A DNA stretch of 64,000 nt from Prorocentrum cordatum (Eukaryota; Sar; Dinophyceae; Prorocentrales; Prorocentraceae): contig CAUYUJ010004536.1 in the NCBI GenBank assembly GCA_963575745.1, positions 207,441-271,440 of the forward strand, given 5' to 3'. This document shows positions 34,606 to 53,574 of this stretch, piece by piece. Every line of letters starts with the position of its first letter. Positions within the stretch are counted from its first letter, which is position 1. The position numbers and the translations under genes were made by a program. The notes beneath the pieces are model-generated. The model was not told the DNA's origin. It saw only the letters and a program-made list of their open reading frames with translations, and did no database searches.

Positions 34606-36045
34606 AAGACGGCCAGGATGACCTCCAAGACGGCCCCAGATGGCCTCCAAGTCCGCCCAAAATGGTCCAAGACGGCCTCCAAGACGGCCTCAGAGAGTTC
34701 AAGACGGCCCAAGACTGCCCAAGAGGCCCCCCAGAGGCCTCCCAGACGGCCCAAGAGCTCTCCAAGAGGTCCTCCAGGAGGGCCCGAAGAGGCCAAAATC
34801 ATTTATTTTCTCTAAGATTTGGAAGGATTTTGGAATTTGCTTCTTCTCGGCATTCCGACGGCTCAGGACGGCCCAAGAGGCCCCCAAGATCGCCCAAGAG
34901 GCCCCCAAGACGGCCCCATGACGGCCCAAGTGGCCTCCAAGATGGCCCCACCAAGAGGTCCTCCAGGAGGGCCCGAAGAGGCCAAAATCATGGATTTTCT
35001 TTAGGCTTTGAAGGATTTGGGAATTTGCTTCTTCTCGGCATTCCGACGGCTCAAGACGGCCCAAGAGGCCCCCAAGATCGCCCAAGAGGCCCCCAAGAGG
35101 GCCCCATGACGGCCCAAGTGGCCTCCAAGACGGCCCCAAGAGGGCCCCAAGACGGCCCAAGAGGCCTCCAACACGCCCAAGATGGCCTCCAAGACGCCCA
35201 AGATGGTCTCCAAGACGGCCCCGAAGCGCCCCAAGAGGGTCCCCCGTTGGCCCAGAAAGGCCCCCAAGACGGCTCCCGACGGCGTCAGACGTGCCAGGAA
35301 CCCACCAGGATGGCCGAAGTTGGCTCGAAGCTGGCCCAAGACGACCCAAGAGGCCCCCAAGAGGGCCTCCAAGAAGGCCAGAAGAGGCCAAAAACATTGT
35401 TTTTCCTTAGGGTTTTCGACTGATTTTGACATTTGCTTCTTTTCGGCCTTCCGACGGCCCGAGACGGCCCAAGAGCCCCCAAAGATCGTCGAAAGATCAC
35501 CCAAGAGGCCTCCAAGATGGCCCCAGAACGGCCCAAAAGGGCCCCAAGACGGCTCCCAAGACGGCACAGGAGGCCTTTAAGACGCCCAAGATGGCCTCCA
35601 AGACGGCCCTGGAGCATTCCAAGAGGGACCCAAGTCGGCCCACAGAGGCCCCCCAAACGGCTTCCGACGGCGTCAGACGGACCAGGAGCCCACCAAGACG
35701 GCCGGACATGGCCCTAAGATGGCGCAAGACGGCCCAAGAGGCCTCCAAGAGGGCCTCCAGGAAGGCCCGAAAAGGCCAAAATCATTGATTTACCATGGGT
35801 TCTTGAAGGATTGTGGCATTTGCTTTTTTTCTGCCTTCCGACGACCCGAGGTGGCTCAAATGCCCACAAAGATCGCCCAAGAGGCCCAAGACACGGCCCC
35901 AAGAGGCCCCCGAGACGGCCCAAGAGGTCTCCAAGACGCTCAAGATAGCCTCCAAGACGGCCCAAGAGCCCTCCAAGACGTCCTCCAAGAAGGCCCGAAA
36001 GGGTCAGAATGGCCTCCAGTCGGTCAAGATGACCTTCAAGATGCC

Positions 36046-36273
36046 CACGTGTTCTCCGAAGGCTTTCCAAACCGATTCGGGGAACACGTGGTCCGATAGC
36101 TTGGCAGGCCTCTGGCCACAACCTTCGGCCACATAGGCGCTTCCAGAAAGGCAGGGGGCGGCGGTGATTCGCCGTGGGCGTCTTAGATCCGCCGCCCCCT
36201 GTCGATTCATCGCAGGGGGGCCTGGCGTGCCAGACCATATGGGTTTTGGTTTTGGTTCTTTTTCCAAAAGAAC
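36046..36273. repeat. Hairpin module M3 (complete)
   Basis: HP1 has arms CACGTGTTCTCCGAA and TTCGGGGAACACGTG. HP2 has arms AGGGGGCGGCGG and CCGCCGCCCCCT. HP3 has arms CCCCTG(T)CGAT and ATCGCAGGGG. HP4 is GTTCTTTT / AAAAGAAC. HP2 and HP3 compete for the same C run. Confidence 0.8.
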
Positions 36274-37093
36274 TCTCCCAATGGGTTTCGGCCCGCCCAG
36301 CCGGGGTACCGGGAGGATTGCCAAGGACCTCAATTCCCCAATTTCGTGCCCAAGACGGCTCTAAGATGGCCTCCAAGATGCCTCCAAGACGGCTAGGATG
36401 GCCTCCAAGACGGCTAAGATGGCTTTAAGATGCCTCCAAGACGGCCCAAGAGAGTCCAAGACAGCCCAAGAAGGCCCAAGAGGCCCCCCAGAGGCCTCCC
36501 AGACGGCCCAAGAGCCCTCCAAGAGGTCCTCCAGGAGGGCCCGAAGAGGCCAAAATCATTGATTTTCCGTAGGTTTTGGATAGATTTTGGAATTTGCTTC
36601 TTCTCGGCATTCCGACGGCTCAAGACGGCCCAAGAGGCCCGCACGATCGCCCAAGAGGCCCCCAAGAGGGCCCCATGACGGCCAAAGTGGCCTCCAAGAT
36701 GGCCCCAAGAGTGCCCCAAGAGGCCTCCAACACGCCCAAGATGGCCTCCAAGACGCCCAAGATGGCCTCCAAGACGGCCCCGAAGCGCCCCAAGAGGGTC
36801 CCCCGTTGGCCCAGAAAGGCCCCCAAGACGGCTCCCGACGGCGTCAGACGTGCCAGGAACCCACCAGGATGGCCGAAGTTGGCTCGAAGCTGGCCCAAGA
36901 CGACCCCCCCAAGAGGGCCTCCAGGAAGGCCAGAAGAGGCCAAAAACATTGATTTTCCTTAGGTTTTTGATGGATTTTGACCTTTCCTTCTTTTCGGCCT
37001 TCCGACGGCCCGAGACGGCCCAAGAGCCCCCAAAGATCGCCGAAAGACCGCCCAAGAGGCCTCCAGGACGGCCAAGATGACCTTCAAGATGCC

Positions 37094-37331
37094 CACGTGT
37101 TCCCCGAAGGCTTTCCAAACCGATTCGGGGAACACAACATGGTCCGATGGCTTGGCAGGTCTGGCCTCAACGTTCGGCCACATCGGCGCTTCCAAAAAGG
37201 CAGGGGGCGGATGTGATTCGCCGGGTGGGGCCGAAGGCCGCTAGATCCGCCGCCCCCTGTTGATTCGTCACAGGGGTGCCTGGCGTGTTAAACCCTCTCG
37301 GTTTTGGTTTTGGTTCTTTTTCCAAAAGAAC
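37094..37331. repeat. Hairpin module M4
   Basis: HP1 is intact with a CA insertion after the right arm. HP2 is altered. HP3 has arms CCCCTG(T)TGAT and GTCACAGGGG, pairing with one G-T wobble. HP4 is present. Confidence 0.75.
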
Positions 37332-38698
37332 TCCCCCTGGGGCTCCGGCGCGTCGCGTCCCGCCGGCCACCTGGAAAGGCGCTCAAAACGCATTCGTGCC
37401 TCTGTTTCCTCCAGTTGGCCCAAGATGGCGTTCAAGACGGCCAAGATGGCCCAGGATGGTCTCCAAAACGTCTCCAAGACGGCCCAAAATGGCCTCCAAG
37501 ACGGCTTAGATGGCCCCAAGACGTCTCCAAGACGGCCCAAGATGTACCCAAGACGGTCTACGACGGCCCAACAGGCCCGCAAGAGGCCTCCAAGACAGCC
37601 CAAGAGCCCTTCAAGACGTCCTCCAGGAAGGCCCGAAAGGGCCAAAATCATTGATTTTCCTTAGGTTTTTGAAGAATTTTGGCATTTGCGCCTTTTCGGC
37701 TTTCCGACGGCCCAAGACGGCCCAAGAGGCCCCCAAGATCGCCCAAGAGGCCCCCCAAAGGGCCCCATGACGGCCTAAGTGGCCTCCAAGACGGCCCCAA
37801 GAGGGCACCAAGACGGCCCAAGAGGCCTCCAACACGCCCAAGATGGCCTCCAAGACGCCCAAGATGGTCTCCAAGACAGCCCCGAAGCGCCCAAAGAGGG
37901 CTCCAAGTCGGCCCAGAAAGACCCCCAAGACGGCTCCCGACGGCGTCAGACGTGCCAGGAACCCACCAAGATGGCCGAAGTTGGCTCGAAGATGGCCCAA
38001 GACGGCCCAAGAGGCCCCCAAGAGGGCCTCCAGGAAGGCCAGAAGAGGCCAAAAACATTGTTTGTTTCTAAGGTTTTTGACGGATTTTGACATTTCCTTC
38101 TTTTCGGCCTTCCGATGGCCCGAGACGGCCCAAGAGCCCCCGAAGATCGCCGAAAGATCGCCCAAGAGGCCTCCAAGATGGCCCCAGAACGGCCTAAGAG
38201 GGCTCCAAGACGGCCCCAAGAGGCCCCCAAGACGGCACAGGAGGCATTTAAGACGCCCAAGATGGGCCGCCAAGACGGCTCTGGAGCATTCCAAGAGGGC
38301 CCCAAGTCGGCCCATAGAGGCCCCCCAAACGGCTTCCGACGGCGTCAGACGGACCAGGAGCCCACCAAAACGGCCGGACATGGACCTAAGATGGCGCAAG
38401 ACGGCCCAAGAGGCCTCCAAGAGGGCCTCCAGGAAGGCCAGAAGAGGCCAAAAACATTGCTTAAGGTTTTTGACGGATTTTGACCTTTCCTTCTTTTCGA
38501 CCTTCCGACGGCCCGAGACGGCCCAAGAGCTCCCAAAGATCGCCGAAAGATCGCCCAAGACCCCAAGACGGCCCAAGAGGTCTCCAAGACGCTCAAGATG
38601 GCGTCCAAGACGGCCCAAGAGCCCTCCAAGACGTCCTCCAAGAAGGCCCGAAAGAGTCAAAATGGCCTCCAGACGGCCAAGATGACCTTCAAGATGCC

Positions 38699-38929
38699 CA
38701 CGTGTTCCCCGAAGGCTTTCCAAACCGATTCGGGGAACACAACATGGTCCGATAGCTTGGCAGGTCTGGCCTCAACGTTCGGCCACATAAGGCGCTTCCA
38801 AAAAGGCAGGGGGCGGCGGTGATTCGCCGTAGGCGTCTTCGATCCGCCGCCCCCTTTTGATTTATCAAAGGGGTGCCTGGCGTGCCAAATGATACGGGTT
38901 TTGGTTTTGCTTCTTTTTCCAAAAAGAAC
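38699..38929. repeat. Hairpin module M5
   Basis: HP1 and HP2 are intact. HP3 has arms CCCCTT(T)TGAT and ATCAAAGGGG, fully paired. HP4 has arms TTCTTTTT and AAAAAGAA. Confidence 0.8.
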
Positions 38930-40247
38930 TCCCCCTGGGGCTTCGGCCCGTCCCACCGGCCACCCGGAAAACCCGTCTGTCGTCGCCAAAAACGGCCGTG
39001 TCGCTCGGGACATCCTCAACAAATCGCGAAGATGGCCCAAGATGGCCTCCAAGTCCGCCCAAGATGGTCCAAGACGGCCTCCAAGGCGGCCCAAGAGAGT
39101 CCAAGACGGCCCAAGACGGCCCAAGAGTCCCCCAGAGGCCTCCAAGATGGCCCACGAGGCCTCCAAGAGGTCCTCCAGGAGGGCCCGAAGAGGCCAAAAT
39201 CATTGATTTTCCTTAGGTTTTTGAAGGATTCTGGAATTTGCTTCTTCTCGGCATCCGACGGCTCAAGACGGCCCAAGAGGCCCCCAAGATCGCCCAAGAG
39301 GCCCCCAAGAGGGCCCCATGACGGCCCAAGTGGCCTCCAAGACGGCCCCAAGAGGGCCCCAAGACGGCCCAAGAGGCCTCCACCACGCCCAAGATGGCCA
39401 CCAAGACGCCCAAGATGGCCTCCAAGACGGCCCCGAAGCGCCCCAAGAGGGCCCCAAGTCGGCCCAGAAAGGCCCCCAAGACGGCCCCCGACGGCGTCAG
39501 ACGTGCCAGGAGCCCACCAAGATGGCCGAAGTTGGCTCGAAGCTGGCCCAAGAGGCCCCCGAGAGGGCCTCCAGGAAGGCCAGAAGAGGCCAAAACCATT
39601 GTTTTTTTTTTCTGAGATTTTTGACGGATTTTGACATTTCCTTCTTTTCGACCTTCCGACGGCCCGAGACGGCCCAAGAGCTCCCAAAGATCGCCGAAAG
39701 ATCGCCCAAGAAGCCTCCAAGATTACCCCAGAACGACCCAAGAGGGCCCCCAGAGGCTCCCAAGACGGCACAGGAGGCATTTAAGACGCCCAAGATGGGC
39801 CTCCAAGACGGCCCTGGAGCATTCCAAGAGGGCCCCAAGTCGGCCAGAGGCCCCCCCGAGGGCTTCCGACGGCGTCAGACGGACCAGGAACCCACCAAGA
39901 CGGCCGAACATGGCCCTAAGAGGGCCCAAGACTGCCCAAGAGGCCTCCAAAAGGGCCTCCAGGAAGGCCCGAAAAGGCCCAAATCATTGATTTCCCATAG
40001 GTTTTTGAAGGATTGTGGCCTTTGTTTATTTTCTGCCTTCCGTCGGCCCGAGACGGCCCAAGTGCCCCCAAAGATCGCCCAAGAGGCCCAAGACACGGCC
40101 CCAAGAGGCCCCCAAGACGGCCCAAGAGGTCTCCAAGACGCTCAAGATGGCCTCCAAGACGGCCCAATAGCCCTCCAAGACGTCCTCCCAGAAGGCCTGG
40201 AAGAGTCAAAATGGCCTCCAGACGGCCAGGATGACCTTCAAGATGCC

Positions 40248-40462
40248 CACGTGCTCCACGAAGGCTTTCCAAACCGATTCGGGGAACACATGGTCCGATA
40301 GCTTGGCAGGTCTGGCCTCAACGTTCGGCCACATAGGCGCTTCCAGAAAGGCAGGGGGCGGCGGTGATTCGCCGTAGGCGTCTTCGATCCGCCGCCCCCT
40401 TTTGGGGTGCCTGGCGTGTCGGATGATATGGGTTTTGGTTTTGGTTCTTTTTGCAAAAGAAC
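40248..40462. repeat. Hairpin module M6 (HP3 collapsed)
   Basis: HP1 has one arm mutated (CTCCACGAA). HP2 is intact. HP3 is shortened to CCCC-TTTT-GGGG. HP4 is GTTCTTTT / AAAAGAAC. Confidence 0.75.
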
Positions 40463-41175
40463 TCCTCCTGGGGCTTCGGCCCGTCCCGCTGGCCACCTGG
40501 AAAGATGCCGAAAGATTGTACAGAAATGGTTGCAAAGGGTTTTTCCGTTCCAGACGGCTCCAAGACGCCTCCAAGACGGCCAAGATAGCCTCCTAGACGG
40601 CTAAGATGGGCCCAGGATGCCTCCAAGACGGCCGAAGATGCACCCAAGACGGCCTAAAATTGCCTCAAGATGGCCCAAAACGGCCCAAGAGGCTCCCAAG
40701 AGGCCTCCCAGACGGCCCAAAAAGAGGCCTCCAAAAGGTCCTCCAGGAAGGCCCGACGAGGCCCAAATCATTGATTTCCCTTAGGTTTTTGAAGGATTTT
40801 GGTATTTGCGCCTTTTCGGCTTTCCGACGGCCCAAGAAGACCCAAGAGGCCCCCAAGGTCGCCCCAAGATCGCCCACGAGGCCTCCAAGAGGGACCCAAT
40901 AGGCCTCCAAGACGGCCCCCAGAGGGCCCCAAGACGGCCTAAGAGACCTCCAAGACGCCCAAGATGACCTCCAAGACGGCCCCGAAGCGCCCCACGAGGA
41001 CCCCAAGTCGGTTCAGAGAGGCACCCAAGACGGCTCCCGACGGCGTCGACGTGCCAGGAACCCACAAAGATGGCCGAAGTTGGCTCGAAGCTGGCCCAAG
41101 AGGCCTCCAAGAAGGCCTCCAGGAAAGCCAGAAAAGGCCAAAACCATTGATTGTCCTGAGGTTTTCGAAGGACTT

Positions 41176-41262
41176 GGACGTCACAAGCTGTTTTCAAAGC
41201 GGAGACCCTGATGAACGAACAGCCACGCGTCCTGGCGCTCAGCTGTGAGGCCAACTTCAACC
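41176..41262 (-). repeat. Split direct repeat B2 (3' end of element)
   Basis: This terminal copy of B borders the satellite sequence GAAGGACTT. Confidence 0.95.
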
Positions 41263-41339
41263 TTAGAGAGAAAAACGAGACGGCACTGCATGTGCGTGGA
41301 TCGGGATTGCGCATGTCCGAGAGGGTTCGGGGGGGCGGG

Positions 41340-41525
41340 GGACCAGAGAAGTTCAAAGTAGGAAAATAGAGCCAGATGGCAACAGAGGCAAGAGGAGGCT
41401 CGCCAAAAACATGATCTACCACGGCAGGGTTGCATCATCATCAAGAGGCGACTCATGCTCTGTGAAGCCAATGGGCGACAAACAGACAACAACTCGAGAC
41501 TTCCTTCACGTGCAAGCACAAACCA
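41340..41525 (-). repeat. Split direct repeat A2
   Basis: This is the second copy of A, directly abutting B1 at 41,525/41,526. The junction joins the two element ends. Confidence 0.95.
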
Positions 41526-41612
41526 GGACGTCACAAGCTGTTTTCAAAGCGGAGACCCTGATGAACGAACAGCCACGCGTCCTGGCGCTCAGCTGTGAGG
41601 CCAACTTCAACC
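41526..41612 (-). repeat. Split direct repeat B1
   Basis: The 87-bp repeat contains GGACGTCACAAGCTG and is identical to B2. It lies just downstream of the methyltransferase stop codon. Confidence 0.95.
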
Positions 41613-41632
41613 CAAGCCGTACCCAAAGACGT

Positions 41633-44600
41633 TTACTGGGAGGGCGGGCTAGGGCGATTATACAGGGACGCGCGCCACTCGCTCAAAAGAATTCTGGCCA
41701 GCTTCCTATAGAGGGCGGGTGGATAGGCAGCAGCGATAGCGGTCCATTTCGCACCATTCGGGGCGTTGCCCTCAAGCACGATGTGTTGACGGCCAGACTT
41801 GCTACATATTCCGTTGATCTGATTACACCGACGATCGAGACAGCTGCTATCATGGACATCTATGTTCAGACACAAGAATCTCGTTCGCTTGCGCCAACGA
41901 GCACCTTCCTGGCACTGGTCGAGACATCTTACTACGGCCCCCCGATCTATAAACCCCTGAACCTCTCTCGTGACAAAAACGCGTGAATTCACAGGATGCT
42001 CGAGTATACAGGGAACTCTGAACTTTTCGCAACATTTGATGACAGACAGCGCGGCACGCATGGTCTTATTGCCAGACGCCAGGCGAGCAAGCTGCTTTGC
42101 ACTCAGAAGATGCTGCGGGAGTCCCCAGGGCTGCGATGCCGAGCGGATGGCCCCCACTCGGTCGGCAGCGGTGGTCCAGGGCCCACAAGGCGGTGCCAGC
42201 ATCACGGCCAAGACGCGGCCTGCAGCGATGTCGGAGCACAGGCCTCGCAAGACCTTTCGTCGGGTAAGGTCGCCGCCTGGCCCGTGCAGCGTGTCCCAGA
42301 ACCTGGCTGGCACGCCCATTGCCATTGCGGCGCGCCCAACGCCTCCCTTGCCACTGAAGCAGTCGGCCAGGTATTGGCCAGTCAGGCGTGGTCGAGCTCC
42401 CGCAAGTCGACCGGCGAGGCGCGACCCAAAATGATGTCCGCGAGCTGAGCATCGCAGACCAGGAACACGTTTTGCTGCGCGCTGCTCAGGGTCGCCCACG
42501 TGGCTGCCAGGCGTGCATGCTTCTCGTAGCGGACGACGCTGCGGTTGGTCTTCCACTGTCCGCGCTTCTGCACGTCGGCCAGCCGCCTCCACCTCCTTGC
42601 CGTGTCTATCGAGGCCCCTGAGTGGCGCATCTGATACGGCACCACCTTGGCCTTTACCTGCAGGTCCTGGAGGCATAGGCTGAACATCTTGCAGTACTCT
42701 GGGTACGTGAAGTTCCACAGGCACTCGGGGTGTCCCTCCTTCTTCATCTGACGCAGCACGGGGTCCAAGAAGCGAATCCAGGGCGAGTCTAACTCTAGCG
42801 ACACGTCCCCCAGGCCCGTCTTGTCCCGCAGGTCCTCCTCCTCCGGGAAGAGCCTCAAGGTCCAGAACTCGCACGCCCCCGCCGCTGGCGGCACCAGGCA
42901 GGCCGGCTTCAGAAGCAAAAGGCTGCTGGGGCGGGCGTACACGCTCACCGCTATCAGAGTGAACACCGCCATCTGGAGGCTGCCACGGGCCTTCATGCGC
43001 CACGCCATTGCGCACCACAGCGCCAGCGCCCACGGCTTCCTCGTCCGCGGCGGCTCCAGGCGCCGCCAGGCCCGGAGGCATCTCCAGCCCCGGGGGAGGC
43101 GCCGGGCACCGTTGCGCGAGAAGTCGTGGTTGAAGTGCAGGACGCCAGCCATCAACTTCTCGGCCCAGGAGAGGTGAGTCCCAGCCTGGTGCAAGCCGTT
43201 CAGGTAGCTCACCAACGCCGAGTCTACCACGGAGTCGTCCCTGCTCTTCATGACCTCGTCGATGTCCACCGAGGGCCAGCTCCGACGGGCAAAGTCCCGC
43301 CATCCGTCCCAGGCCCTCTGGTACTCGCGCTGCGTCGGGGTTCGCACGGCCTCCCGCTCCAGGAGAGAGAAGCCCTCCTCGCCGGTGGGCATCCCGTAGT
43401 GGCGGGCCCTGCGCTTCCGCGACTGCGCGAGCCTGCGCTGCCGCGCGGCGCCGGTCACGACCTCGGGCTCGGAGCTCCCGCTGTCGGAGGAGCCGACGCT
43501 CTCTCGCGCTCCCCTCGCGGGCTCCGCTGGCACAGGCACCCTTGTCAGGTCCTCCACCACTCGCCCCAGGCTCCGCGGCAGGGGACGGCTCAGCACAGCC
43601 GTCTTCAGGAGCCCCGACTCGCCCAGCTGACGCTCCCGCCGAGCTGCCGGCAGCGGCTGCGGCGCTATCGGCGGCGCAGGGACAAGCTGCCGCGTGCGCC
43701 TCGCCTCCTGGCCGCGGGCTGACGGCTGCAGGCCAGGCTCCGGGCGAGACGGCGCCAGCTGCCGCGTGCGCCGGCGGCCCGTCTCGAGCCTCGCGCCTCG
43801 CCTGGCCTGCTGGGGGCTCCGAGAGCGGCCCCGCCCGTCTGGCGTTTGAGGGCGCGCAGGCAGCATCGCGGGCCGCGGCGCCATCGGCCGCCCGCTCGGG
43901 CGCGGCCCAGGCGGGAACCCGCCCTGGGCGCGCCTGGGAGCTCTCGAGCTCCAACAGCTCAGCCAGAAGGGTGGATTTTGCGCCGTCAGGATCAAATAGC
44001 CGTGAGGGAAGGTCGGCACAGTTGAGCTCACTGGGTATCCAACGAATCGAACAACGAATGTTTCGGCTTAGACAGACAGCGTGAAATCGACGAATCTGAA
44101 CCAACAAGTTGAAACACGAGCTCCTTCCCCGATTGAAGCTTAGCACGACCGACATATTGTCACAGAGCAGTAACTGACGTATATGGGACCCAAAGACCGT
44201 GGTGGCGATACGATGGATGCTGCTGACCAGGGCTCGGGCCTCCAAGGTCAAGATGCCCTCAGGGTGCTGCCAGGCTCTCGCGAAACAGGGCTCCCACAGG
44301 CCTGCGCGGAGCCCCTGGGCGGGCACCTCCGGGAAGTCCCTCACAACGTCCCACTGGCCCAGCTCCTCCTCATCTTCGGGAAGGCCCTTGAGTTCCCATT
44401 TTCCACTCTCACTCATACCGAAGCCAGCTGCACAGAGCGCAGCCTCTCGAGCACTGTGCGCGCAGCGCCGGCGAAAGCGGGCCCGCTCAGGCACGCGCCC
44501 GACTGACTCCACCAGCTCCTGCGGCCAGAAAGCCCTTGCCAGTCCGTAGCCGTGAAGACTGGCATCTGACTGCTGCGCCATCGGATTCCAAGGCAGCCAC

Positions 44601-46237
44601 CAATCTGACTCCAGGAAGTACATCAGGGAGCTGAAGGCGGCCAGCTCTCGCCGCGCCTCGGTCCATAGCACGGCCGCCTCGTCATAGTGGGCTCGCACAA
44701 AGCCGTGCACTGAATTGAAAGCTGACAAGGTGCCGCGCGAGCAGAGGCCACAAAAGGTTAGGTGGCCCAGCACTGCCTCCACGGCCCAGCCCTTGACACG
44801 GCGGCGGGCTAGGAGGCCCCGCACGGCCTGGCGGCAGCGCCAGAACCGATCACTGGTCACTCGAGTGCGCAACTGGCTGCCGTCGATCTCCGTGCCAAGC
44901 GCCACTGCCATGCCCGGCGCCAGCTCGTCCTTGTGCAACAGTAGGTTCAGCTCGGTGAACTCGCCCGTCAGCTGGTTCATCACGCCGCTCACGAGCTCAG
45001 AGAATAGCGAGAATACCCCCAAGTTGTCGACGTACACGTAGTGCCTGACCTCCTGGGGCGCCCTGCCAGGCGCGAACACGAGCGGTGGCCCATGGTCTGA
45101 CAGACTGGGCCCCCTGAGGAGCGCGCTGCTGCGGCGGCTTACCTCCTCGTTGGCCCGCTGGGCGAAGTAGAGAGACCAGCTGAAGCCCATGGGCAGGACC
45201 TGCCAGCAAGGGTAGATGGCCGTCGACGCCTGCACCTTGGTCCCCTCGACCTCGGTCACGCCGAAAGCCCCAGCCTTGACAGGCGGCAGGCAGAAGTATT
45301 GCGAGAGGGCTGAATCGATCCGCATTCGATGAAAGCAGTCCTTCACGTCCGCCATGCCGATGTACACCTGCTGCGCCTCCAGCGCGGCGCGGAGGTCCTC
45401 GTAACTCGAGAAGCCCGCGTCTGGCATGTGCACCTCGATTCTGGCGAGGCCCTCGCTGCTCAATAGCTCCACCCCAGGAGGATCCCTGAAGTGGGCGTTC
45501 GCGCGGCGGGCGTCGACTACGAGGCGAAGTCGGCGCCGCCCATCCTTCCACACAAAGAACATCCCAATTCTCTCTTTCGGTGTCAGAGTCCACCCCAGAA
45601 TGCCAGCTGACAGCAGCCGACGCACCAGGCCGCGGTACTCCTTGTGGTTGAACTTGAGGACCGAGTCGAAGTACGGCTCGACGTCGGTCGGCAAAGGTGA
45701 CTCTCGTAGCATGCGCTCTTGGCGCTCCCGCAGGAAGGTAAGGGCCTCGCCAGGCAAGAGGTCCTCAAGACGCGGGCAGTCGCTCACGTCCGTCGGCATG
45801 CTGACGAACCCTGCACTGTAGGAGGCGACCGTCGTCGGGCCGCCGCGCCCGTCATATGGCGAGCGGCCCCGCAGCAGCTCCCGGAGGGCCGCCTGCGGCT
45901 CCTGCAACTTGGCGTCCGGCTGCCGGCCCCGAACGAGGCCCTCGAAGCGTGCAAGTACATCCCGCTGCATGCCATTGGCTGGGCCAGGTTGCGAGTCGTA
46001 CCCCGACATCCAGTTGATGGCGTCGACGATCCCGTTGACCTCCAACGCAATCCGAGACTCACGACCGAACTGCCTCGCCCTGCTAGACCTGCCGCGAATT
46101 CGGCGGCCTGCGTCGCCCAGCAGCGGGAGCGGCAGAAAGCTGCGGGCCCCTCGCGAGGGCGGCAAGCGGCCGCCGTCGTGCCCCGGCAAAAAGGGCCCGG
46201 GGGAGGGGCTGAAGCCCCCGGGCCCGGGGGCCGTCAT
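41633..46237 (-). CDS. Retrotransposon ORF3: RT - RNase H - (spacer) - C5 cytosine methyltransferase
   Basis: The frame has 1,534 codons without a stop. Reverse transcriptase occupies about residues 225-500, with LRLVVDARRAN, YIGMADVKDCF (motif A Asp), VLPMGFSWSLYFAQ (motif B) and YVDN at 402-405 in place of YxDD. RNase H follows: D558 (QSDAS), E666, D693 (LCDNMSVV) and D742 (ELNCADLPSR). Residues 1284-1534 form a cytosine-5 methyltransferase-like domain. It has ADCFSGKGGVGRAA (SAM motif I), APPCGPW (catalytic PC motif IV), LEHPVNSR (motif VI), RKRTRFLCLN (motif VIII) and PALYRKLARIL near the end (motif X). The stretch between (about 755-1283) overlaps the recombinase gene in another frame and has no domain of its own. 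Retrotransposon-borne cytosine methyltransferases are known from dinoflagellates. Confidence 0.85.
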   Translation of the reverse strand: MTAPGPGGFSPSPGPFLPGHDGGRLPPSRGARSFLPLPLLGDAGRRIRGRSSRARQFGRESRIALEVNGIVDAINWMSGYDSQPGPANGMQRDVLARFEGLVRGRQPDAKLQEPQAALRELLRGRSPYDGRGGPTTVASYSAGFVSMPTDVSDCPRLEDLLPGEALTFLRERQERMLRESPLPTDVEPYFDSVLKFNHKEYRGLVRRLLSAGILGWTLTPKERIGMFFVWKDGRRRLRLVVDARRANAHFRDPPGVELLSSEGLARIEVHMPDAGFSSYEDLRAALEAQQVYIGMADVKDCFHRMRIDSALSQYFCLPPVKAGAFGVTEVEGTKVQASTAIYPCWQVLPMGFSWSLYFAQRANEEVSRRSSALLRGPSLSDHGPPLVFAPGRAPQEVRHYVYVDNLGVFSLFSELVSGVMNQLTGEFTELNLLLHKDELAPGMAVALGTEIDGSQLRTRVTSDRFWRCRQAVRGLLARRRVKGWAVEAVLGHLTFCGLCSRGTLSAFNSVHGFVRAHYDEAAVLWTEARRELAAFSSLMYFLESDWWLPWNPMAQQSDASLHGYGLARAFWPQELVESVGRVPERARFRRRCAHSAREAALCAAGFGMSESGKWELKGLPEDEEELGQWDVVRDFPEVPAQGLRAGLWEPCFARAWQHPEGILTLEARALVSSIHRIATTVFGSHIRQLLLCDNMSVVLSFNRGRSSCFNLLVQIRRFHAVCLSRNIRCSIRWIPSELNCADLPSRLFDPDGAKSTLLAELLELESSQARPGRVPAWAAPERAADGAAARDAACAPSNARRAGPLSEPPAGQARREARDGPPAHAAAGAVSPGAWPAAVSPRPGGEAHAAACPCAADSAAAAAGSSAGASAGRVGAPEDGCAEPSPAAEPGASGGGPDKGACASGAREGSARERRLLRQRELRARGRDRRRAAAQARAVAEAQGPPLRDAHRRGGLLSPGAGGRANPDAARVPEGLGRMAGLCPSELALGGHRRGHEEQGRLRGRLGVGELPERLAPGWDSPLLGREVDGWRPALQPRLLAQRCPAPPPGLEMPPGLAAPGAAADEEAVGAGAVVRNGVAHEGPWQPPDGGVHSDSGERVRPPQQPFASEAGLPGAASGGGVRVLDLEALPGGGGPAGQDGPGGRVARVRLALDSLLGPRAASDEEGGTPRVPVELHVPRVLQDVQPMPPGPAGKGQGGAVSDAPLRGLDRHGKEVEAAGRRAEARTVEDQPQRRPLREACTPGSHVGDPEQRAAKRVPGLRCSARGHHFGSRLAGRLAGARPRLTGQYLADCFSGKGGVGRAAMAMGVPARFWDTLHGPGGDLTRRKVLRGLCSDIAAGRVLAVMLAPPCGPWTTAADRVGAIRSASQPWGLPQHLLSAKQLARLASGNKTMRAALSVIKCCEKFRVPCILEHPVNSRVFVTREVQGFIDRGAVVRCLDQCQEGARWRKRTRFLCLNIDVHDSSCLDRRCNQINGICSKSGRQHIVLEGNAPNGAKWTAIAAAYPPALYRKLARILLSEWRASLYNRPSPPSQ
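42382..44031 (-). CDS. Retrotransposon ORF4: tyrosine recombinase
   Basis: The 549-codon frame overlaps ORF3 entirely, in a shifted frame. The first 210 residues are Arg/Pro-rich and likely unstructured. An N-terminal core-binding domain starts near residue 230 (TPTQREYQRAWDGWRDFA). The catalytic domain shows R367 (VYARPSSLLLLK), YQMRHSGAS with R469 at the HxxR position (first His replaced by Tyr), GQWK at 491-494, and the nucleophile Y502 (VVRYEKHA). These are the residues of phage-integrase-type recombinases found in DIRS elements, which insert the circular cDNA. The TGA stop at 42,384-42,382 lies within the first codons of the methyltransferase domain, which reads in the -1 frame relative to this ORF. 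Confidence 0.85.
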   Translation of the reverse strand: MSSTVPTFPHGYLILTAQNPPFWLSCWSSRAPRRAQGGFPPGPRPSGRPMAPRPAMLPARPQTPDGRGRSRSPQQARRGARLETGRRRTRQLAPSRPEPGLQPSARGQEARRTRQLVPAPPIAPQPLPAARRERQLGESGLLKTAVLSRPLPRSLGRVVEDLTRVPVPAEPARGARESVGSSDSGSSEPEVVTGAARQRRLAQSRKRRARHYGMPTGEEGFSLLEREAVRTPTQREYQRAWDGWRDFARRSWPSVDIDEVMKSRDDSVVDSALVSYLNGLHQAGTHLSWAEKLMAGVLHFNHDFSRNGARRLPRGWRCLRAWRRLEPPRTRKPWALALWCAMAWRMKARGSLQMAVFTLIAVSVYARPSSLLLLKPACLVPPAAGACEFWTLRLFPEEEDLRDKTGLGDVSLELDSPWIRFLDPVLRQMKKEGHPECLWNFTYPEYCKMFSLCLQDLQVKAKVVPYQMRHSGASIDTARRWRRLADVQKRGQWKTNRSVVRYEKHARLAATWATLSSAQQNVFLVCDAQLADIILGRASPVDLRELDHA

Positions 46238-47757
46238 GGCCCCGTGGAGGCGACGCCCCTGGCCCGGCGGCCGCGCCCGCGGCCGCCTCGGCCGCCACCG
46301 CGCCCCGCACCTGCTGCGTCACCTCCAGCTCCCTCTGCTCCGTCGACTGTCTCTGAAGGCGCCCCGCGTAGCGTGCGCGCCCGATTCTGCGCCTGCTCCA
46401 TCTCGTGCTGCTCCTTCGCCCGCCGGTGGACGTAGCCCCTGAGCTCTGGCCCTGAGACGTCCTCCACCGAGCTCACTTCCTCGAAGAAGCGTGCGTTCGT
46501 CCAGCTCGGCTTGGACGGGTCCGCGTAGGCATCCACCACTGCGGCCACGCGGCGTGTCAACACCTCCACCATCATCAGGCCGCCCATGTTCAACTGGTCA
46601 TATACCCCGCCCTGGTACAAGGCCTCCACGATGGTCCTCAGCTCGTGCACCGCGCGGTCATTCTGCCCGAGGCCCTTCATGCGAATGAAGAGGTCGAGCC
46701 AGAGGCGCGGGTCGCCACCGTGCCTTTCCATGTGCTTGCACATGTGGAGAGCCCCAGGCGGTCCGTCCACCTTCGCGTCTGGGTAGCGCTCCTGCCTCGA
46801 CTCGCCTACCACGTCCCGCCATCGCTTGAACCGCTCGCCCTGCTCGTCGTAGTCGACCCAGAGCGTGCGGGCGTCGGCGTCGCGCTCCTCGCCCAGCGGC
46901 TCCGCCAAGGGCGGCAGCGCCAGCTCGGGCGCAGCCGTGCCGCCCATGGGCTCGGCGGGCTCCTCATCCTCGAGCGGCGCCGCGGCTGCAGCGCGTCGGC
47001 GCTCGGGGCCCAGGGCACGCGCTTGGCCTCTGTCCAGGCCATGCCAGACTGCGGCCTCCTCGGCCACGCGCCCAGGGGCCGGCCCTGCGCCCAGCCGGGC
47101 GAGACGCACTATGCCGCCGTCGGCGGCCCTCAGCACACCGAACGGCTCGGGCCCGTCCTCGAAGCTCAGGCCCTCGATATTCGCCACGTCGACCTCCGTT
47201 CCGATCGCAGCGCCGGGCCCGCCGCTGAGGGCGATCCAGGCCTGACCCGCACCAGGAGCCTCCAGCAGCTTCCCGCCCAGGCGAGCCACGGCCATGCCCA
47301 GGCGCAGCAGGCCGGCCCGCTCCGCGGCCGACAGCTTACCAGCAGCCTCCTGCCAGGTGACCCGCTGGCCGCCCACGGCCACGGCCTCCCTCGGCTCAGG
47401 CAAGGCAGCGTCCATCTCCAGCGCCGCCTGACGGCCCCGCGTCAACGCGTCGGCCAGCTCGTCGGGCCCCAGCTCCTCACGGAAGCGATACAGCCTCCGC
47501 ATCTTGCGCGTCCGCAGTGCCAGCGGGAAGGCTCGGGCAGGCCCAGTCTCGGGGTCCCCACAGCTCATGTCCTCAGCGTAGATGTCACCATCTGGGGTCA
47601 GGACGACCCACTCGCCTTCCGCCGCGTAGTGCAGCAGCACCCGCTCGTGGTCGACGTCGTCGTCGGCGAAACGGCAGACCACGTGCTCCCCTGGGAGCGC
47701 TCTAGTCCACCACTCCCGCCCCGCGTCGCCGCGGAGCCACCCCACGAGCGACGCCAT
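46234..47757 (-). CDS. Retrotransposon ORF2: gag-like protein
   Basis: The start at ATG 47,757 (MASLVGWLRGDAGREW) is preferred, because the upstream in-frame extension only encodes Arg/Ala/Pro-rich shadow of ORF1. The 507-residue protein has an N-terminal domain (EHVVCRFADDDVDHERVLLHY, a chromo- or SH3-like beta segment), a Pro/Ala linker and a helical domain. The helical domain (LWVDYDEQGERFKRWRDVV, then CKHMERHGGDPRLWLDLF and MKGLGQNDRAVHELRTIVEAL) looks like a capsid-type fold. The C-terminus is Gly/Arg-rich. Position just before RT supports a gag role; homology is inferred. Its stop overlaps the RT start as ATGA (46,237-46,234), suggesting reinitiation coupling. Confidence 0.7.
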   Translation of the reverse strand: MASLVGWLRGDAGREWWTRALPGEHVVCRFADDDVDHERVLLHYAAEGEWVVLTPDGDIYAEDMSCGDPETGPARAFPLALRTRKMRRLYRFREELGPDELADALTRGRQAALEMDAALPEPREAVAVGGQRVTWQEAAGKLSAAERAGLLRLGMAVARLGGKLLEAPGAGQAWIALSGGPGAAIGTEVDVANIEGLSFEDGPEPFGVLRAADGGIVRLARLGAGPAPGRVAEEAAVWHGLDRGQARALGPERRRAAAAAPLEDEEPAEPMGGTAAPELALPPLAEPLGEERDADARTLWVDYDEQGERFKRWRDVVGESRQERYPDAKVDGPPGALHMCKHMERHGGDPRLWLDLFIRMKGLGQNDRAVHELRTIVEALYQGGVYDQLNMGGLMMVEVLTRRVAAVVDAYADPSKPSWTNARFFEEVSSVEDVSGPELRGYVHRRAKEQHEMEQAQNRARTLRGAPSETVDGAEGAGGDAAGAGRGGGRGGRGRGRRARGVASTGP

Positions 47758-48229
47758 GCCTGCGAGTGACCACCTTCGCCACCAGCCAGTGCACCAGGCC
47801 TCCAAGCAGCGCTCCAGCGAGCTTCTCAGCCGCCTTCTCGCCAGCCGACGCCTCCGGGCACGCCCTCGCCTCGCAGGCCGGGCAGGCCGCGCACGGCGGC
47901 GGCTCGCAGGCCGGGCAAGCCGCGCAGGGAGGCGGCTCGCAAGCCGGGCAGGCCGCGGCCTCCGGGCAGGCCGCGCACGCCGCCGCCTCTGGGCACGCTG
48001 GGCAGGCAGGGCACGAGAGGTCTGGGCAGGCCGCCTGCCCTGGGCCCCAGCCTGGCCCAAAGAAAGCCGCGGCCTCCAGCGCCAGCACCGCCCAGGCCGG
48101 CAACGCGGCCGCCCCGCCAGGGATGGCGACCGCGTCCATCGACTCTGGACCAGAGAAGCTCAAAGTAGGAAAATAGAGCCAGATGGCAACAGAGGCAAGA
48201 GGAGGCTCGCCAAAAACATGATCTACCAC
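47702..48229 (-). CDS. Retrotransposon ORF1: small Cys-rich protein
   Basis: The frame opens at 48,229 inside A1. A second Met at 48,139 (MDAVAIPGGAAALPA) gives 145 residues and avoids the repeat, so the start is undecided. It has a hydrophobic N-terminal segment (LPAWAVLALEAAAFFG), then about twelve Cys in repeated CPAC/CEPPPCAA units. An amphipathic or membrane-like helix (LAGALLGGLVHWLVAKVV) and a basic tail follow. The Cys spacing is not a standard gag CCHC knuckle. It overlaps ORF2 by about 56 nt. Its function is unknown. Confidence 0.55.
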   Translation of the reverse strand: MVDHVFGEPPLASVAIWLYFPTLSFSGPESMDAVAIPGGAAALPAWAVLALEAAAFFGPGWGPGQAACPDLSCPACPACPEAAACAACPEAAACPACEPPPCAACPACEPPPCAACPACEARACPEASAGEKAAEKLAGALLGGLVHWLVAKVVTRRHGVARGVAPRRRGAGVVD

Positions 48230-48332
48230 GGCAGGGTTGCATCATCATCAAGAGGCGACTCATGCTCTGTGAAGCCAATGGGCGACAAACAGACAACAAC
48301 TCGAGACTTCCTTCACGTGCAAGCACAAACCA
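48147..48332 (-). repeat. Split direct repeat A1 (5' end of element)
   Basis: The repeat is 186 bp and ends in TTGTGCTTGCACGTGAAGG-like sequence read on the minus strand. It differs from A2 only at 48,159 (C versus T at 41,352 on the plus strand). The ORF1 upstream Met lies inside it. Confidence 0.95.
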
Positions 48333-48947
48333 TGACATTTGCTTCTTCTCGGCCTTCCGACAGCTCAAGACGGCCCAAGAGGCCGCCAAGATCGCCCCAA
48401 GATCGCCCAAGAGGCCTCCAAGACAGCCCCAGAACGGCCCAAGAGGCCCCCAAGACGGCCCCAAGAGGCCCCCAAGACGGCCCAGGCGGCCTGTAAGACG
48501 CCCAAGATGGGCCTCCGAGACGGCCCTGAACACCCCAAGAGGGCCCCAAGTCGGCCCAGAGAGGCCCCCCAAACGGCTTCCGATGGCGTCAGACGGGCCA
48601 GGAGCCCACCAAGACGGCCGAAGATGGCCCTAAGATGGCCCAAGATGGCCCAAGAGGCCTCGAAGAGGGCCTCCAGGAAGGCCCGAAAAGGCCCAAATCA
48701 TTGATTTTCCATGAGTTTTTGAAGGATTGTGGCATTTGCTTTTTTTCGGCCTTCCAACGGCCCGAGACGGCCCAAGAGCCCCCGAAGACCGCCCACGAGG
48801 CCCAAGACGGCCCCGAGAGGCACCCAAGACGGCCCAAGAGGCCTCCAAGACGCTCAAGACGGCCTCGAAGACGGCCCAAGAGCCCTCCAAGAAGGCCCGG
48901 AAAGGTCAAAATGGCTTCCAGACGGCCAAGAGGACCTTCAAGATGCC

Positions 48948-49174
48948 CAAGTGTTCCCCGAATGTTTTCCAAACTGATTCGGGGAACACATGGTCCGATG
49001 GCTTGGCAGGTCTGGCCTCAACGTTCGGCCACATAGACACTTCCAAAAAGGCAGGGGGCGGCGGTGATTCGCCGTAGGCGTCTTCGATCCGCCGCCCCCT
49101 GTCGATTCGTCGCAGGCGTGCCTGGCGTGCTCGACGATTTCGGTTTTGGTTTTGGTTCTTTTTCCAAAAAGAAC
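48948..49174. repeat. Hairpin module M7
   Basis: HP1 has arms GTGTTCCCCGAA and TTCGGGGAACAC. HP2 is intact. HP3 has arms CCCCTG(T)CGAT and GTCGCAGGCG, with one mismatch. HP4 has arms GTTCTTTTT and AAAAAGAAC around CC, a perfect 9-bp stem. The copy at 56,233-56,459 is its duplicate. Confidence 0.8.
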
Positions 49175-50655
49175 TCCCCCTGGGGCTTCAGCCCGTCCCG
49201 CCGGCCACCCGAAAGGATCTTCCAGAGGTGGTTGCCGAGGGTTTTCCTGCCCCAGATGGCTCCAAGATGACCCAAGATGGCCTCCACGATGCTTCCAAGA
49301 CGGCCAAGATGGACTCCAAGATGGCCCAAGATGCACCCAAGACGGCCTCAGATGGGCTCAAAACGGCCCAAGACGGCCGAAGAGATCCTAAGAGGCCTCC
49401 ACGTTTGCCCAAGAGGCCTCCAAGACGGCCCAAGGCGACCCAAGAGGCCTCCAAGAGGTCCTCAAGGAGGGCCCGAAGAGGCCAAAATCATTGATTTTCC
49501 ATTGGGTTTTGAAGGATTTTGACATTTGCTTCTTCCTGGCCTTCCGACAGCTCAAGACGGCCCAAGAGGCCGCCAAGATCGCCTACGAGGCCTCCAAGAG
49601 GGCCCCTTGATGGCACAAGCGGCCCCCAAGACGGCCTCAAGAGGGCACAAAGACGAGGCCTCCAAGACGCCCAAGATGGCCTCCAAGACGGCTCCGAAGC
49701 GCCCCAAGAGGACCCAAAATCGGTTCAGAGAGGCCCCCCAAACGGCTTCCGACGGCGTCAGACGGGCCAGGAGCCCACCAAGATGGCCGAAGTTGGCTCG
49801 AAGCTGGCCCAAGACGGCCCAAGAGGCCTCCAATAGGGCCTCTAGGAAGGCCAGAAAAAGGCCAAAAACACGGATATTCAATATTTTGTTGAATGATTTT
49901 GACACTTGCTTCTTTTCGGCCTTCCGACGGCCCGATACGGCCCAAGAGCCCCCACAGATCGCCCAAAGATCGCCCAAGATGCCTCCAAGATGGCTCCAGA
50001 ACGGCCCAAGAGGCCCCCAAGACGGCCCCAAGAGGCCCCCCAGACGGGCCCAGGAGGCTTTTAAGACGCCCAAGATGGCCTCCGAGACGGCCCTGGAGCA
50101 TTCCAAGAGGGCCCCAAATCGGCTAAGAGAGGCCCCCCAAACGGCTTCCGAGGGCGTCGGACGGGCCAGAGGCCCACCAAGACGGCCGAAGATGGCCCTA
50201 AGAGGGCCCAAGACGGCCCAAGAGGCCTCCAAGAGGGCCCCAAGTCGGCTCAGAGAGGCCCCCCAAACGGCTTCCGACGGCGTCAGACGGACCAAGAGCC
50301 CACCAAGACGGCCGAACATGGCCCTAAGAGGGCCCAAGACGGCCCAAGAGGCCTCCAAGAGGGCCTCCAGGAAGGCCCGAAAAGGCCCAAATAATTGATT
50401 TTCCAAAGAGTTTTTGAAGGATTGTGGCATTTGCTTTTTTTTCGGCCTTCCAACGGCCCGAGACGGCCCAAGAGCCCCCGAAGATCGCCCAAGAGGCCCA
50501 AGACGGCCCCAAGAGGCACCCAAGACGGCCCAAGAGGCCTCCAGGACGCTCAAGATGGCCTCCAAGACGGCCCAAGAGCCCTTCAAGACGTCCCCCAAGA
50601 AGGCCCGAAAGGGTGAAAATGGCCTCCAGGCGGCCAAGATGATCTTCAAGATGCC

Positions 50656-50827
50656 AACGTGTTCCCCGAATGCTTTCCAAACCGATTCGGGGAACACATG
50701 GTCCGATAGCTTGGCAGATCTGGCCTCAACGTTCGGCCACGTAGGCGCTTCCAAAAAGGCAGGGGGCGGCGGTGATTCGCCGTAGGCGTCTTCGATCCGC
50801 CGCCCCCTGTGGTCTTGCCACAGGGGT
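50656..50827. repeat. Hairpin module M8
   Basis: HP1 and HP2 are intact. HP3 has a different, fully paired stem: CCCCTGTGG and CCACAGGGG around TCTTG. HP4 is absent; the sequence continues into a TGTCAGGACACCCCCGGGGG stretch. The duplicate lies at 57,941-58,112. Confidence 0.8.
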
Positions 50828-50859
50828 GCCCGGAGTGCTGAATTTCATTTGGTTTTTAG

Positions 50860-53570
50860 TTTGTGTCAGGACACCCCCGGGGGGGTCGATTTATTGCGCT
50901 GGCCACCCAGCCGGCCGCGCAAAACCGCACAATCAGCCGAATTGTTTTGTCCAAGCCGAGAAGGCCTCCATAAGGGGCTCCAGAAGGCCCGAGGAATTAC
51001 CCGATCAAGGTGCCCTAATAGCAGCTAAGGTGCGTGGATTTCCAAATGTCCCAAATATTTAAGCGATGAGGGTGATTTTGCTGATGGTGGTTATGGTGAT
51101 GATGGTTCTGGTGATCCTATGTGTTTTACGCATGTTCCTATGTGTTGTTCCTCTATGGTGGTTTGGCGCGAATGTGTTCTGCGTATGTTCCTGTATATGA
51201 TCTCATGGTTATGCAAATATTATCGGTGCATGATGCGAGCCCAAGACGCATGATCGTCTCAAGACGGAGCTGCGGATGATGACCACGATCAGCGGCAATG
51301 TTTTGTCGAGTACGCTGGACAACACTTCTACGGTCCGAACGGAATGGCAAGAGAGTTGTCTGCTACAACACAGGCTGAGCAGCACCGTGGATCCGAGAAC
51401 ATGGGCACAACAGGCTGAGCAGCACCTTGGTCGCGAGAGCTTGAATCGCAAGCTCCAGGGAGACGTTGTGGTGGCCGACGCATATGATCATCCAAGCGAA
51501 GCGCCGGCAAATACTTTGGAGAGTCTGCGAGACATACGAGGCGGCAGAGGCTGAACCACACCGTGGCCGCGAGAGCACGGCACGGAACAAATGCAGGAGG
51601 GAGCGCAAGACTGCGCGCCACGGTCGGCAAGCTAGCAAGCATCGCGGCAAAACGGTAGTCCAACGTTTCAGTCTACACGGGGATCCAGAAGGCCTCCCCC
51701 CCCCGGTCTCCCTTGATGGCGTACTGTGGAGCGTGCGGGCCGCCTTCGCGGGCGGCGCGCCAGTGAGGTTTGCGAGGGCGTTCGCCGCGCGAGAGCGCTT
51801 CTCGGTTGACGCGGGACGCGCGCTGACGGCGAGGCGGCGCAGGCGCTGCGCGCGCAGCCGCATCTTCGAAGCTGTAGCTGCCAACGTGCCGGAGAGCATG
51901 CTGGAGAGCAGACCGCGCTCGGGGTCTGCGCGCGCGGACAGCGCCAGGGCCACCTGGAACTTCTTACCGCGCAGCCGGGATACCTCCAACGCTGTGAGAC
52001 CGTTCAGCAACCCGTGACATGGTGAGATTCGCGTAGGTCAATCGTCGTGCCCTCCGTACTTGCAGTGTCTTTGGCCTGGGCGGTGGTGATCTTGTGCCCT
52101 GAGCCCCCCTCTGCTTCTGTCGATGGCTTCGTGCAGCTGGCCACGAGCTCCCCTTGGCTACGCGCACGTTCGACTACAAAGTCCACCATTTACACTCATG
52201 TGACCCTTCCTTGACCTCTACGACCTGGCGATCCATATTGTGCAGCAACTAGCACGGATGGAGTGAGCCTCCTCTTTCGAAACGGGGCCCTCGCGTGAGA
52301 CTTCGGCGAAGCATACGCGCACGACTTAGACATCCTGCAACGCCTAGACGGATGGAGGGCCATAGGCGTCTTCCAAGTGAGGGATTATCGTTTACAACAA
52401 GGCCCTCGTCTGACTGGCGGACCGACTGGCTTCTCGTCATTCAAGGGGGGTCGCCCGCAATGCAAAGGAATACTTGTTTGGACTTATGAGGACGGGACTT
52501 CGGACGGGAGGGTGTACTGCAGCATCGGTTGATGCATCTTGGGTTTACTCTGGTCCTCCTTCTCCTCTTCCTCCATCCTCGTCTCTCTACCCCCGCCCCG
52601 CACCTCAAGTCGCACACGCTCCCCGATGGACCCATTCTTTGCTGCGGTCCACAGAGACAGAAGACAATCGAAACATATGACCGTAAACGTTCGGAGGTCC
52701 GCGCGGAATTCTTGACACGGCGCTGGACCGCACACCCGTTTACCGGCGCGCGGACCGTGCGGGGGGCGCCGTGCAGGGGTGGCGGGGAGATGGGCCCAAC
52801 GCCGAGCCAAGCACTCTGCGCGTGCATCTGAACGTTTATGATGACTGCTTTTTCTGGTCTTCGAGTGGCGTTCACGCTCCCCGACGGACCGATCCTTCGC
52901 TTCAGTCCACGGGCGGGCGTTCCTGGTGGCGGCGTCGTTCTGCGACGAGGTGACCGCGACCAATCGAATCGGGGATCGACTACAGAATTGATTTACCCCA
53001 AAATTATTTTTCTCGTCGGATGAAAAATGTTAGCCAGCGTGGGCCGCAAACAATGTGTTTCTAGCAGTATATGGTGTGCAATATATGTGGACCTTCTACG
53101 TTGCGCACTATATGTGGTGCAATATATGCTGTGTAATGTATTTGGTGCAATTTGTGTGAACGAACTTAAGTTGCGCGATACGTTTTCTTATTCGGTGTTT
53201 CGACATTGGGCGAAAGCGGGGGAGGGGGAGTCTGACTCCAGACCTCTGCTTAATGCGACTGATTGGAACAGTGTGTCCTGTGGGGGAAACTTCTGGGGAG
53301 ATCCTACGGGGGAAACCGAATCCGATTAGAATCGATTTGGATTCCGATTAGAATCTCCAGGATTTGCAATTCCAGAGGATCCCGCAACAACTGGCTCCCC
53401 CCGGGGTACACCGCAACCGTCGCCCTGGAGCCCTTGTCTTCCCAACCACCCTGTGTTGTTGGGTCCTCGTGCTGAAGAGACTGCGCCCGGCGTTCCTTCC
53501 TCCTTCCTTCCTCCTCTTCCTCCTCCCCCTCCTCCCTCCTCCCATCCCTGCCTCGCCTCCCCCACCCAAC
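50860..53570. other. Duplicated region without recognised gene
   Basis: It is repeated at 58,145-60,855. A minus-strand frame at 52,010-51,363 (start MLNGLTALEVSRLRGKKF) has a plausible helical N-terminal part followed by low-quality sequence; I cannot identify it, and confidence that it is a gene is low. 52,610-52,930 contains two related segments with CTCCCCGATGGACC and CTCCCCGACGGACC, each near CCGTAAACGTTCGG or GAACGTTTATG. 53,060-53,150 has repeats of TATATGTGGTGCAATATATG. 53,490-53,560 is CTCCTCC-rich. Confidence 0.4.
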
Positions 53571-53574
53571 ACAA

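Follow-up and report, generated by a model that had tools for sequence, protein, structure and literature searches.

A PAT-like retrotransposon of the dinoflagellate Prorocentrum cordatum whose Pol frame, held open through a nested tyrosine recombinase gene, ends in a predicted C5 cytosine methyltransferase

Here we describe a tyrosine-recombinase retrotransposon from the dinoflagellate Prorocentrum cordatum, found on the minus strand of a 64,000-nucleotide (nt) stretch of contig CAUYUJ010004536.1 (assembly GCA_963575745.1, positions 207,441 to 271,440 of the forward strand; hereafter the window). The last domain of its Pol frame is identified, from a predicted structure, a profile comparison and conserved Cys and Glu residues, as a divergent C5 cytosine methyltransferase (MT) and not a Dam-type enzyme. 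Pol reaches this domain by remaining open through a complete overlapping tyrosine recombinase (YR) gene, and an MT fusion held in place by such an overlap suggests that the element marks its own DNA copies while the copying enzyme synthesizes them. The explanation that we regard as probable for the whole is that of an intact and recent PAT-like element in which a C5 MT, tethered to reverse transcriptase (RT), methylates the element's own complementary DNA (cDNA), with integration over a 4-nt overlap.

The MT is fused to RT and RNase H in Pol, and not to the recombinase. A preliminary description of this element had placed a C5-type MT after the recombinase; the C5 type holds, whereas neither an open reading frame (ORF) of its own nor a recombinase fusion does, the domain being the tail of Pol and YR lying nested in another frame. 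The predicted model has the C5 methyltransferase fold, with HhaI, DNMT3 and DNMT1 structures tying as nearest. Motifs I, IV (PPC), VI (E-N/H-P), VIII and X follow one another in this order with the catalytic Cys and Glu (profile alignment covers motifs I and IV, and VI to X were assigned by eye); in the window copy they include PC, E-H-P and KRT, and a C/C/C/H cluster occupies the place expected for the target-recognition region. In structure comparison the domain is 8-16% identical to DNMTs.

Profile and sequence collections return nothing significant for this domain. It had no significant Pfam match; for PF00145, the window domain and four homologs had no match at E 10, nor was there any at E 1 among 24 Pol sequences, a set that includes the window and chimeric gene models and in which 16 sequences have the full domain and 2 a partial one. 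NCBIfam and PDB sequence searches yielded nothing significant, the best PDB profile row being a DNMT2 at E 0.87 (not significant), and no relative appeared in the viral and genome collections searched. The Pfam comparison proposed with the preliminary description was borne out for RVT_1, which was found below the cut-off, and not for the other two domains, with no PF00145 match for the MT and no Pfam match for YR. Classical DIRS elements have an MT described as Dam-like in the running text of PMC5890265, and a Dam-like adenine methyltransferase (PF05869 type) was tried here and rejected as extremely improbable: comparison of the profile with six Dam-family proteins gave 7% at E 0.005, the window domain and the homologs searched had no Pfam Dam match, and both the order of the motifs and the nearest folds are those of C5 enzymes. 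Amino-methyltransferases were missing from the 50 matches listed for the MT (VIA, Foldseek), although such an absence is not evidence. Fold, motifs and profile comparison together uphold the C5 type.

The whole YR gene occupies the +1 frame between RNase H and the MT. Its inferred start, MAP[K/R], recurs in several homologs; the R-K-R-W-Y residues are kept, with the usual His of HxxR mostly Tyr here, and structure comparison gives a fold of the Cre/Xer/integrase type, Tn1549 integrase structures being among the matches. The Pol frame is open through YR more than chance allows. Over 529 codons of the YR frame, starting 29 codons ahead of the inferred start, Pol contains no stop, against a mean of 6.8 in 20,000 synonymous shuffles, of which three were stop-free; the third frame over the same codons has 23 stops. 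Three copies from divergent families (about 35-39% Pol identity) have identical nesting and frame, and their Pol frame was stop-free in 0.6%, 0/5000 and 0.22% of shuffles, fractions biased by the choice of these copies for long open frames. In a protein-only test, the Pol linker was scored as the +1-frame partner of the YR catalytic block against 20 of its own shuffles: all 55 linkers (54 relatives and the window) outscored every one of these and the other sense frame, which itself outscored the shuffles in 2/55. The partner of the block sits 83-95 amino acids (aa) before the MT in the tested linkers. The YR profile excluded the window and the gene model P0133, some of its homologs possibly coming from the same elements as the linkers; one linker of <200 aa was excluded beforehand, and the comparison covered sense frames.

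It could be argued that an open Pol frame over YR with an MT tail is a chance product of GC-rich DNA or an annotation artefact, as a GC content of 66% favours long frames and the copies and relatives were in part chosen or filtered for them. We reject this as barely credible in view of the synonymous shuffles of the window and the three divergent copies, the +1 position kept in 55/55 linkers, and the ratio of nonsynonymous to synonymous substitutions (dN/dS) of the MT in the Pol frame. A frame held open through YR fits a need for an MT tethered to RT; because the element pays about 500 dual-coded codons for it, the overlap is unusually direct evidence that the MT must stay attached.

Median dN/dS over 12 usable Pol sequences was 0.13 for RT-RNase H, 0.13 for the MT and 0.77 for the linker, and over 13 sequences in the YR frame it was 0.11 for the conserved part and 0.75 for the N-terminal part; the linker and YR values are descriptive only, because the overlap biases them, whereas MT and RT lie outside it. 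By these estimates MT, RT and recombinase are under similar purifying selection and the overlapped linker is not. The set comprised 20 places (the window and 19 copies, with L023 excluded as a duplicate of L022), from which the 12 Pol and 13 YR sequences passed length and stop filters; those with one in-frame stop were retained and that codon skipped. L022 and L023 share flanks and so look like a single insertion on two contigs. Over 55 relatives plus the window, divergence is 0.513 for RT, 0.512 for the MT and 0.80 for the linker, and RT and MT distances correlate (r 0.76, with 0/2000 permutations as high).

Such low dN/dS bears on the possibility that the domain is a C5-fold nucleic-acid binder, or an RNA methyltransferase, concerned with RNA or cDNA handling and not with DNA methylation. 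That idea draws on the low identity to DNMTs, the C/C/C/H cluster at the target-recognition position, the DNMT2 at the head of the PDB profile rows and the suggestion of RNA methylation made for the LINE type by de Mendoza et al. (running text of PMC5890265); yet Cys, Glu and the motif I residues are conserved at dN/dS 0.13, and the SymbioDIRS-Dnmt3 domains methylate CG in yeast, although theirs is a different domain (same text), and we consider it unlikely.

The MT is widespread among relatives of the RT. Among the 120 listed of 155 RT matches, 57 have the full domain, 7 a partial one and 56 none; where 450 aa or more follow the RT-RNase H match (69 relatives), 56 have it in full. Protein homologs were restricted to 0.55-1.75 of query length, so that Pol products ending after RNase H are under-sampled. 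Full or partial domains occur in Symbiodinium (P0087, P0107), Prorocentrum (P0097, P0120, P0130), one Lingulodinium match (P0002) and two gene models labelled Skav (P0005, P0074), a label that we take to stand for Fugacium kawagutii. Against the first twelve protein matches, all labelled Prorocentrum cordatum, the RT region shows 87-98% identity. Pfam RVT_1 matches the window RT at E 1.3e-4 and 22.2 bits, under its cut-off of 29.6, and matched 11 of the 24 Pol sequences; conserved RT/RNase H columns run across 107 relatives plus the window, the RNase H-type motifs having been recognised by eye.

The coordinates of the element and its parts are collected in Table 1. The ends given in the preliminary description proved exact to the base and its A1-ORFs-B1-A2-B2 layout is present on the minus strand, as are an RT with YVDN, RNase H, a tyrosine recombinase and an MT-like domain with the motifs given above. 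Its count of five open frames becomes four (short 5' ORF, gag, Pol and YR), because the MT is the C-terminus of the 1534-aa Pol frame and not an ORF of its own. The two A repeats match at all but one of their 186 positions, and the two B repeats are identical over all 83. The split direct repeats, RT with RNase H, tyrosine recombinase and absence of a target-site duplication together make this, on its sequence features, an intact tyrosine-recombinase retrotransposon of the PAT-like kind. Membership among DIRS1-like elements was rejected: the terminal repeats are direct, and no inverted pair of >=20 nt was found at the element's ends. The insertion is supported as recent, and that part of an earlier claim of recent activity stands. 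The observed/expected CpG ratio is 0.94 in the element against 0.71 in the satellite-rich flank; with CpG not depleted, the element bears no deamination footprint.

Table 1. Features of the element within the window
Feature	Position	Strand	Remark
Complete element	41176..48332	-	A1-ORFs-B1-A2-B2 split direct repeats
Target-derived GTCA (minus strand), 4 nt ahead of element	48333..48336	-	Varies by copy; matches closest empty-site satellite units
Repeat A1, 5' end, first letters TGGTTTG	48147..48332	-	
Short 5' ORF, 145 aa, CPAC-type Cys repeats and two hydrophobic stretches	47702..48139	-	Described from the window copy
Gag-like ORF, ATG at 47757	46234..47757	-	
Pol ORF, 1534 aa: RT - RNase H - open linker - predicted C5 methyltransferase	41633..46237	-	
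RT and RNase H, approx. Pol aa 160-770, YVDN at aa 402-405	43928..45760	-	
Tyrosine recombinase (YR) gene, 500 aa, +1 frame, nested inside Pol	42382..43884	-	
Predicted C5 methyltransferase domain, Pol aa 1289-1534; Cys1351, Glu1413, C1442/C1471/C1478/H1485	41636..42373	-	
Repeat B1	41530..41612	-	
GTCC spacer separating B1 from A2, putative record of circle junction	41526..41529	-	GTCC at 21/21 places
Repeat A2	41340..41525	-	
77 nt separating A2 from B2, outside both repeats	41263..41339	-	
Repeat B2	41180..41262	-	
3' terminal GTCC	41176..41179	-	GTCC at 20/21 places

The gag stop and Pol start overlap as ATGA, and a Pfam search gave no significant match for the gag-like ORF. The 145-aa 5' ORF overlaps the gag start; fast-diverging 5' ORFs, including a membrane protein, are described for a DIRS element of Ectocarpus in the available text of PMC3537659. 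The 77-nt gap between A2 and B2 has the same length in L022, L024, L025 and L027.

Copies were sought in the 4.13-Gb assembly (21,875 contigs), and 20 were chosen from the best 32 of 144 genome-match rows, which is not a random sample. The order A1...MT-B1-A2-B2 recurred in all 20 further copies fetched and in 3/3 from divergent families, the recurrence of A and B repeats that the preliminary description had proposed to look for, and is therefore not due to chance. Counting by tblastn, Pol is free of stops and frame breaks in 9 of 21 (copies plus window). The spacer between B1 and A2 is GTCC throughout, and so is the 3' end apart from GTCT in L038. The 5' start TGGTTTG is found in 20/21 (L036 is eroded) with four variable nt ahead of it, and these were never GTCC (0/20 readable), other copies having ACGG, AGGA, CATA and AAGA. 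When the flanks of the window's element are joined, they align across the junction to 23 satellite units, four of them copies within a tandem duplication; where the element's 3' side has GTCC, these empty-site units have GTCA, the 4 nt that stand ahead of the element's 5' end, in the six best and in 10/23 overall, and GTCC in 0/23. L037 (GTCA) and L041 (GCCA) were seen by eye to have inserted into this satellite at one and the same phase, and the coincidence of three insertions there, the window's included, suggests a target preference. We read these junctions as recombinase exchange over a 4-nt overlap for which a full match would be unnecessary, leaving the target's 4 nt on the left and the circle's GTCC on the right: in the window by the empty-site comparison, in two copies by eye, and by extension in the rest.

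The surrounding satellite is degenerate and runs from about 33200-41100 and 48337-50700, in CCAAGAGGCC / CCAAGACGGCC units with a higher-order repeat of roughly 400 bp. The tandem duplication is direct (47157-54058 / 54442-61343; 6.9 kb, 3 mismatches in 6902 positions, 383 bp between the copies), takes in the element's 5' end and flank, and is either recent or an assembly artefact; a match at 54442-55621 belongs to it and was rejected as a second insertion. The copies form two subfamilies with a common Pol and different repeats, L026 and L028-L041 on the one side and the window, L022-L025 and L027 on the other; their A repeats are about 80-85% identical over only about 60 nt, and B ends in AGATCTCGGGAC in L026/L028-L041 versus ACAGCTTGTGAC. 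L026 has an MT 96.8% identical yet repeats of the other type, as if termini had been exchanged. Elsewhere in the window, 22665-24223 holds an array of 93-bp units in 16.8 copies, with leucine-rich-repeat-like coding as an impression only. PF00145 matches number at least 129 in the host genome; many of them fall in open frames about 380-580 aa long, which may be DNMT ORFs of the LINE type, like those of Symbiodinium.

Several observations weigh against an RT-tethered, DNA-methylating C5 enzyme and integration without a full match. The Cys letter is absent in 6/72 domains; the sole methylase-type Pfam row is N6_N4_Mtase, at E 0.29 over 25 residues of the homolog P0005, which is chance level; Y402 of YVDN varies in 4/12 copies; the element is not depleted in CpG; and among the 69 long-tailed relatives 8 have no MT domain and 5 a partial one. 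A Met stands 3-4 residues ahead of the motif I Y/F in 4/12 matches to the MT query, and at most about 19 residues from motif I in 12/56 linkers, where about 11% (6) would be expected, so that a separate MT product is possible in some families. The last of these observations favours an MT made mainly as a separate protein, through an internal start or a shift from the YR frame, and acting in trans on host DNA. The YR stop at 42382 lies close to MT motif I at about 42373, where a short shift could join the two, and the automatic P. cordatum gene model P0133 is a composite of fragments from the RNase H region, YR and MT. Under this alternative Pol has no need of an open frame across the roughly 500 codons shared with YR, yet such a frame is present, against expectation, in the window and three divergent copies, and in the window the last Met ahead of motif I (aa 1289) stands at aa 1188; we think this alternative improbable.

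A further adverse point concerns the junctions: GTC is held in common with GTCC at 4/20 readable 5' ends (the window and L037 with GTCA, L031 and L035 with GTCT), where about one is expected, and this excess means that some core matching may help integration. The variable 5' nt might then be untemplated additions or mutations, or core homology might be required as in the DIRS1 model. The four GTC ends favour such a view, while the GTCA of the empty-site units, none of which has GTCC, and the ACGG, AGGA, CATA and AAGA of other copies speak against it, and we give it a smallish but real chance of being correct.

For exchange over a non-matching overlap by an element with a tethered MT, the following course may be proposed. 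From the B1-GTCC-A2 unit, RT would restore complete ends and produce a closed double-stranded cDNA circle whose junction is B-GTCC-A, and the tethered MT would methylate the cytosines of this circle. The recombinase would then join the circle to the genome by exchange over the 4-nt overlap, so that the 4 nt of the target would flank the 5' end and the 3' end would finish in GTCC, with no target-site duplication. With its methyl marks, the new copy might resemble the CG-methylated DNA of the host, or be shielded from deamination or degradation. Self-methylation of cDNA is the best-supported candidate mechanism; it has been proposed, together with a role in protection or camouflage, for SymbioDIRS-Dnmt3 (running text of PMC5890265).

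DIRS elements with a C5 enzyme in Pol, and long YR/Pol overlaps, are already known from the available text of PMC5890265 and PMC3266345. A literature search, with most subscription journals and the figures and supplements of the 2018 paper (PMC5890265) outside its scope, returned no description of a Pfam-invisible C5 family, of a YR nested entirely between RNase H and MT while selection keeps the Pol frame open, or of the 4-nt junction pattern. We incline, by a little more than an even chance, to the broader proposal that this is a third C5 lineage, Pfam-invisible and distinct from Dnmt3, residing in Pol of split-repeat YR retrotransposons of several dinoflagellate genera, its fusion to RT kept by an open frame through a complete overlapping YR, with cDNA methylated as it is made and the circle integrating over a heterologous 4-nt overlap. 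If true, elements scored as DIRS without DNMT may carry this lineage. Pfam-based counts pass over an MT family that numbers dozens of copies in one genome and also occurs in other dinoflagellates, which bears on the origin of heavy CG methylation in dinoflagellate genomes. The element makes testable why retroelements keep DNA methyltransferases.

Integration guided by a coupling sequence, in which a circle with a short spacer is joined at a non-identical target overlap, is the mode of Tn916/Tn1549-type elements. Theirs is a likeness in working only, as they are bacterial conjugative elements without RT. The Gag of Pat1 has a zinc finger, which is absent in Toc and Kangaroo. PAT-like elements (Pat1, Toc3, Kangaroo) share with the present one the A1-B1-A2-B2 split direct repeats and the RT, MT and YR domains, but Kangaroo and nematode Pat1 carry their internal repeats between MT and YR, whereas here YR and MT both precede the repeats and the MT comes last (available text of PMC4157794); the MT of the DIRS group is moreover described as a Dam-like adenine type (running text of PMC5890265), in contrast to the predicted C5 type here. 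Ngaro and VIPER likewise have A1-B1-A2-B2 repeats, YR and RT/RNase H, but are described without an MT domain in the available text of PMC4157794 and PMC6681497. DIRS1-like elements resemble this one in gag, YR, a Pol with RT, RNase H and MT, long YR/Pol overlaps and the lack of a target-site duplication, and differ from its direct repeats in having inverted terminal repeats, complementary internal regions and a 3-bp circular junction; the catalytic part of their YR is at the 3' end, outside the overlap, whereas here that part is wholly overlapped, with the MT behind it (available text of PMC3266345).

The closest counterpart is SymbioDIRS-Dnmt3, which confirms the earlier remark that dinoflagellate retroelements with cytosine methyltransferases are known. 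According to the running text of the 2018 paper (PMC5890265), it too is a dinoflagellate element of DIRS type with A-coding-B-A-B repeats, a separate YR ORF and a cytosine MT in the Pol ORF with RT, the MT being under purifying selection; its isolated domains methylate CG in yeast, and the CpG of SymbioDIRS-Dnmt is no different from that of DIRS without DNMT. YR nesting between RNase H and MT does not figure in that text, leaving its figures aside, and one of its two forms may match. The domain of SymbioDIRS-Dnmt3 is PF00145-detectable and belongs to the Dnmt3 clade (PMC5890265, same text), whereas that of the element described here has no PF00145 match.

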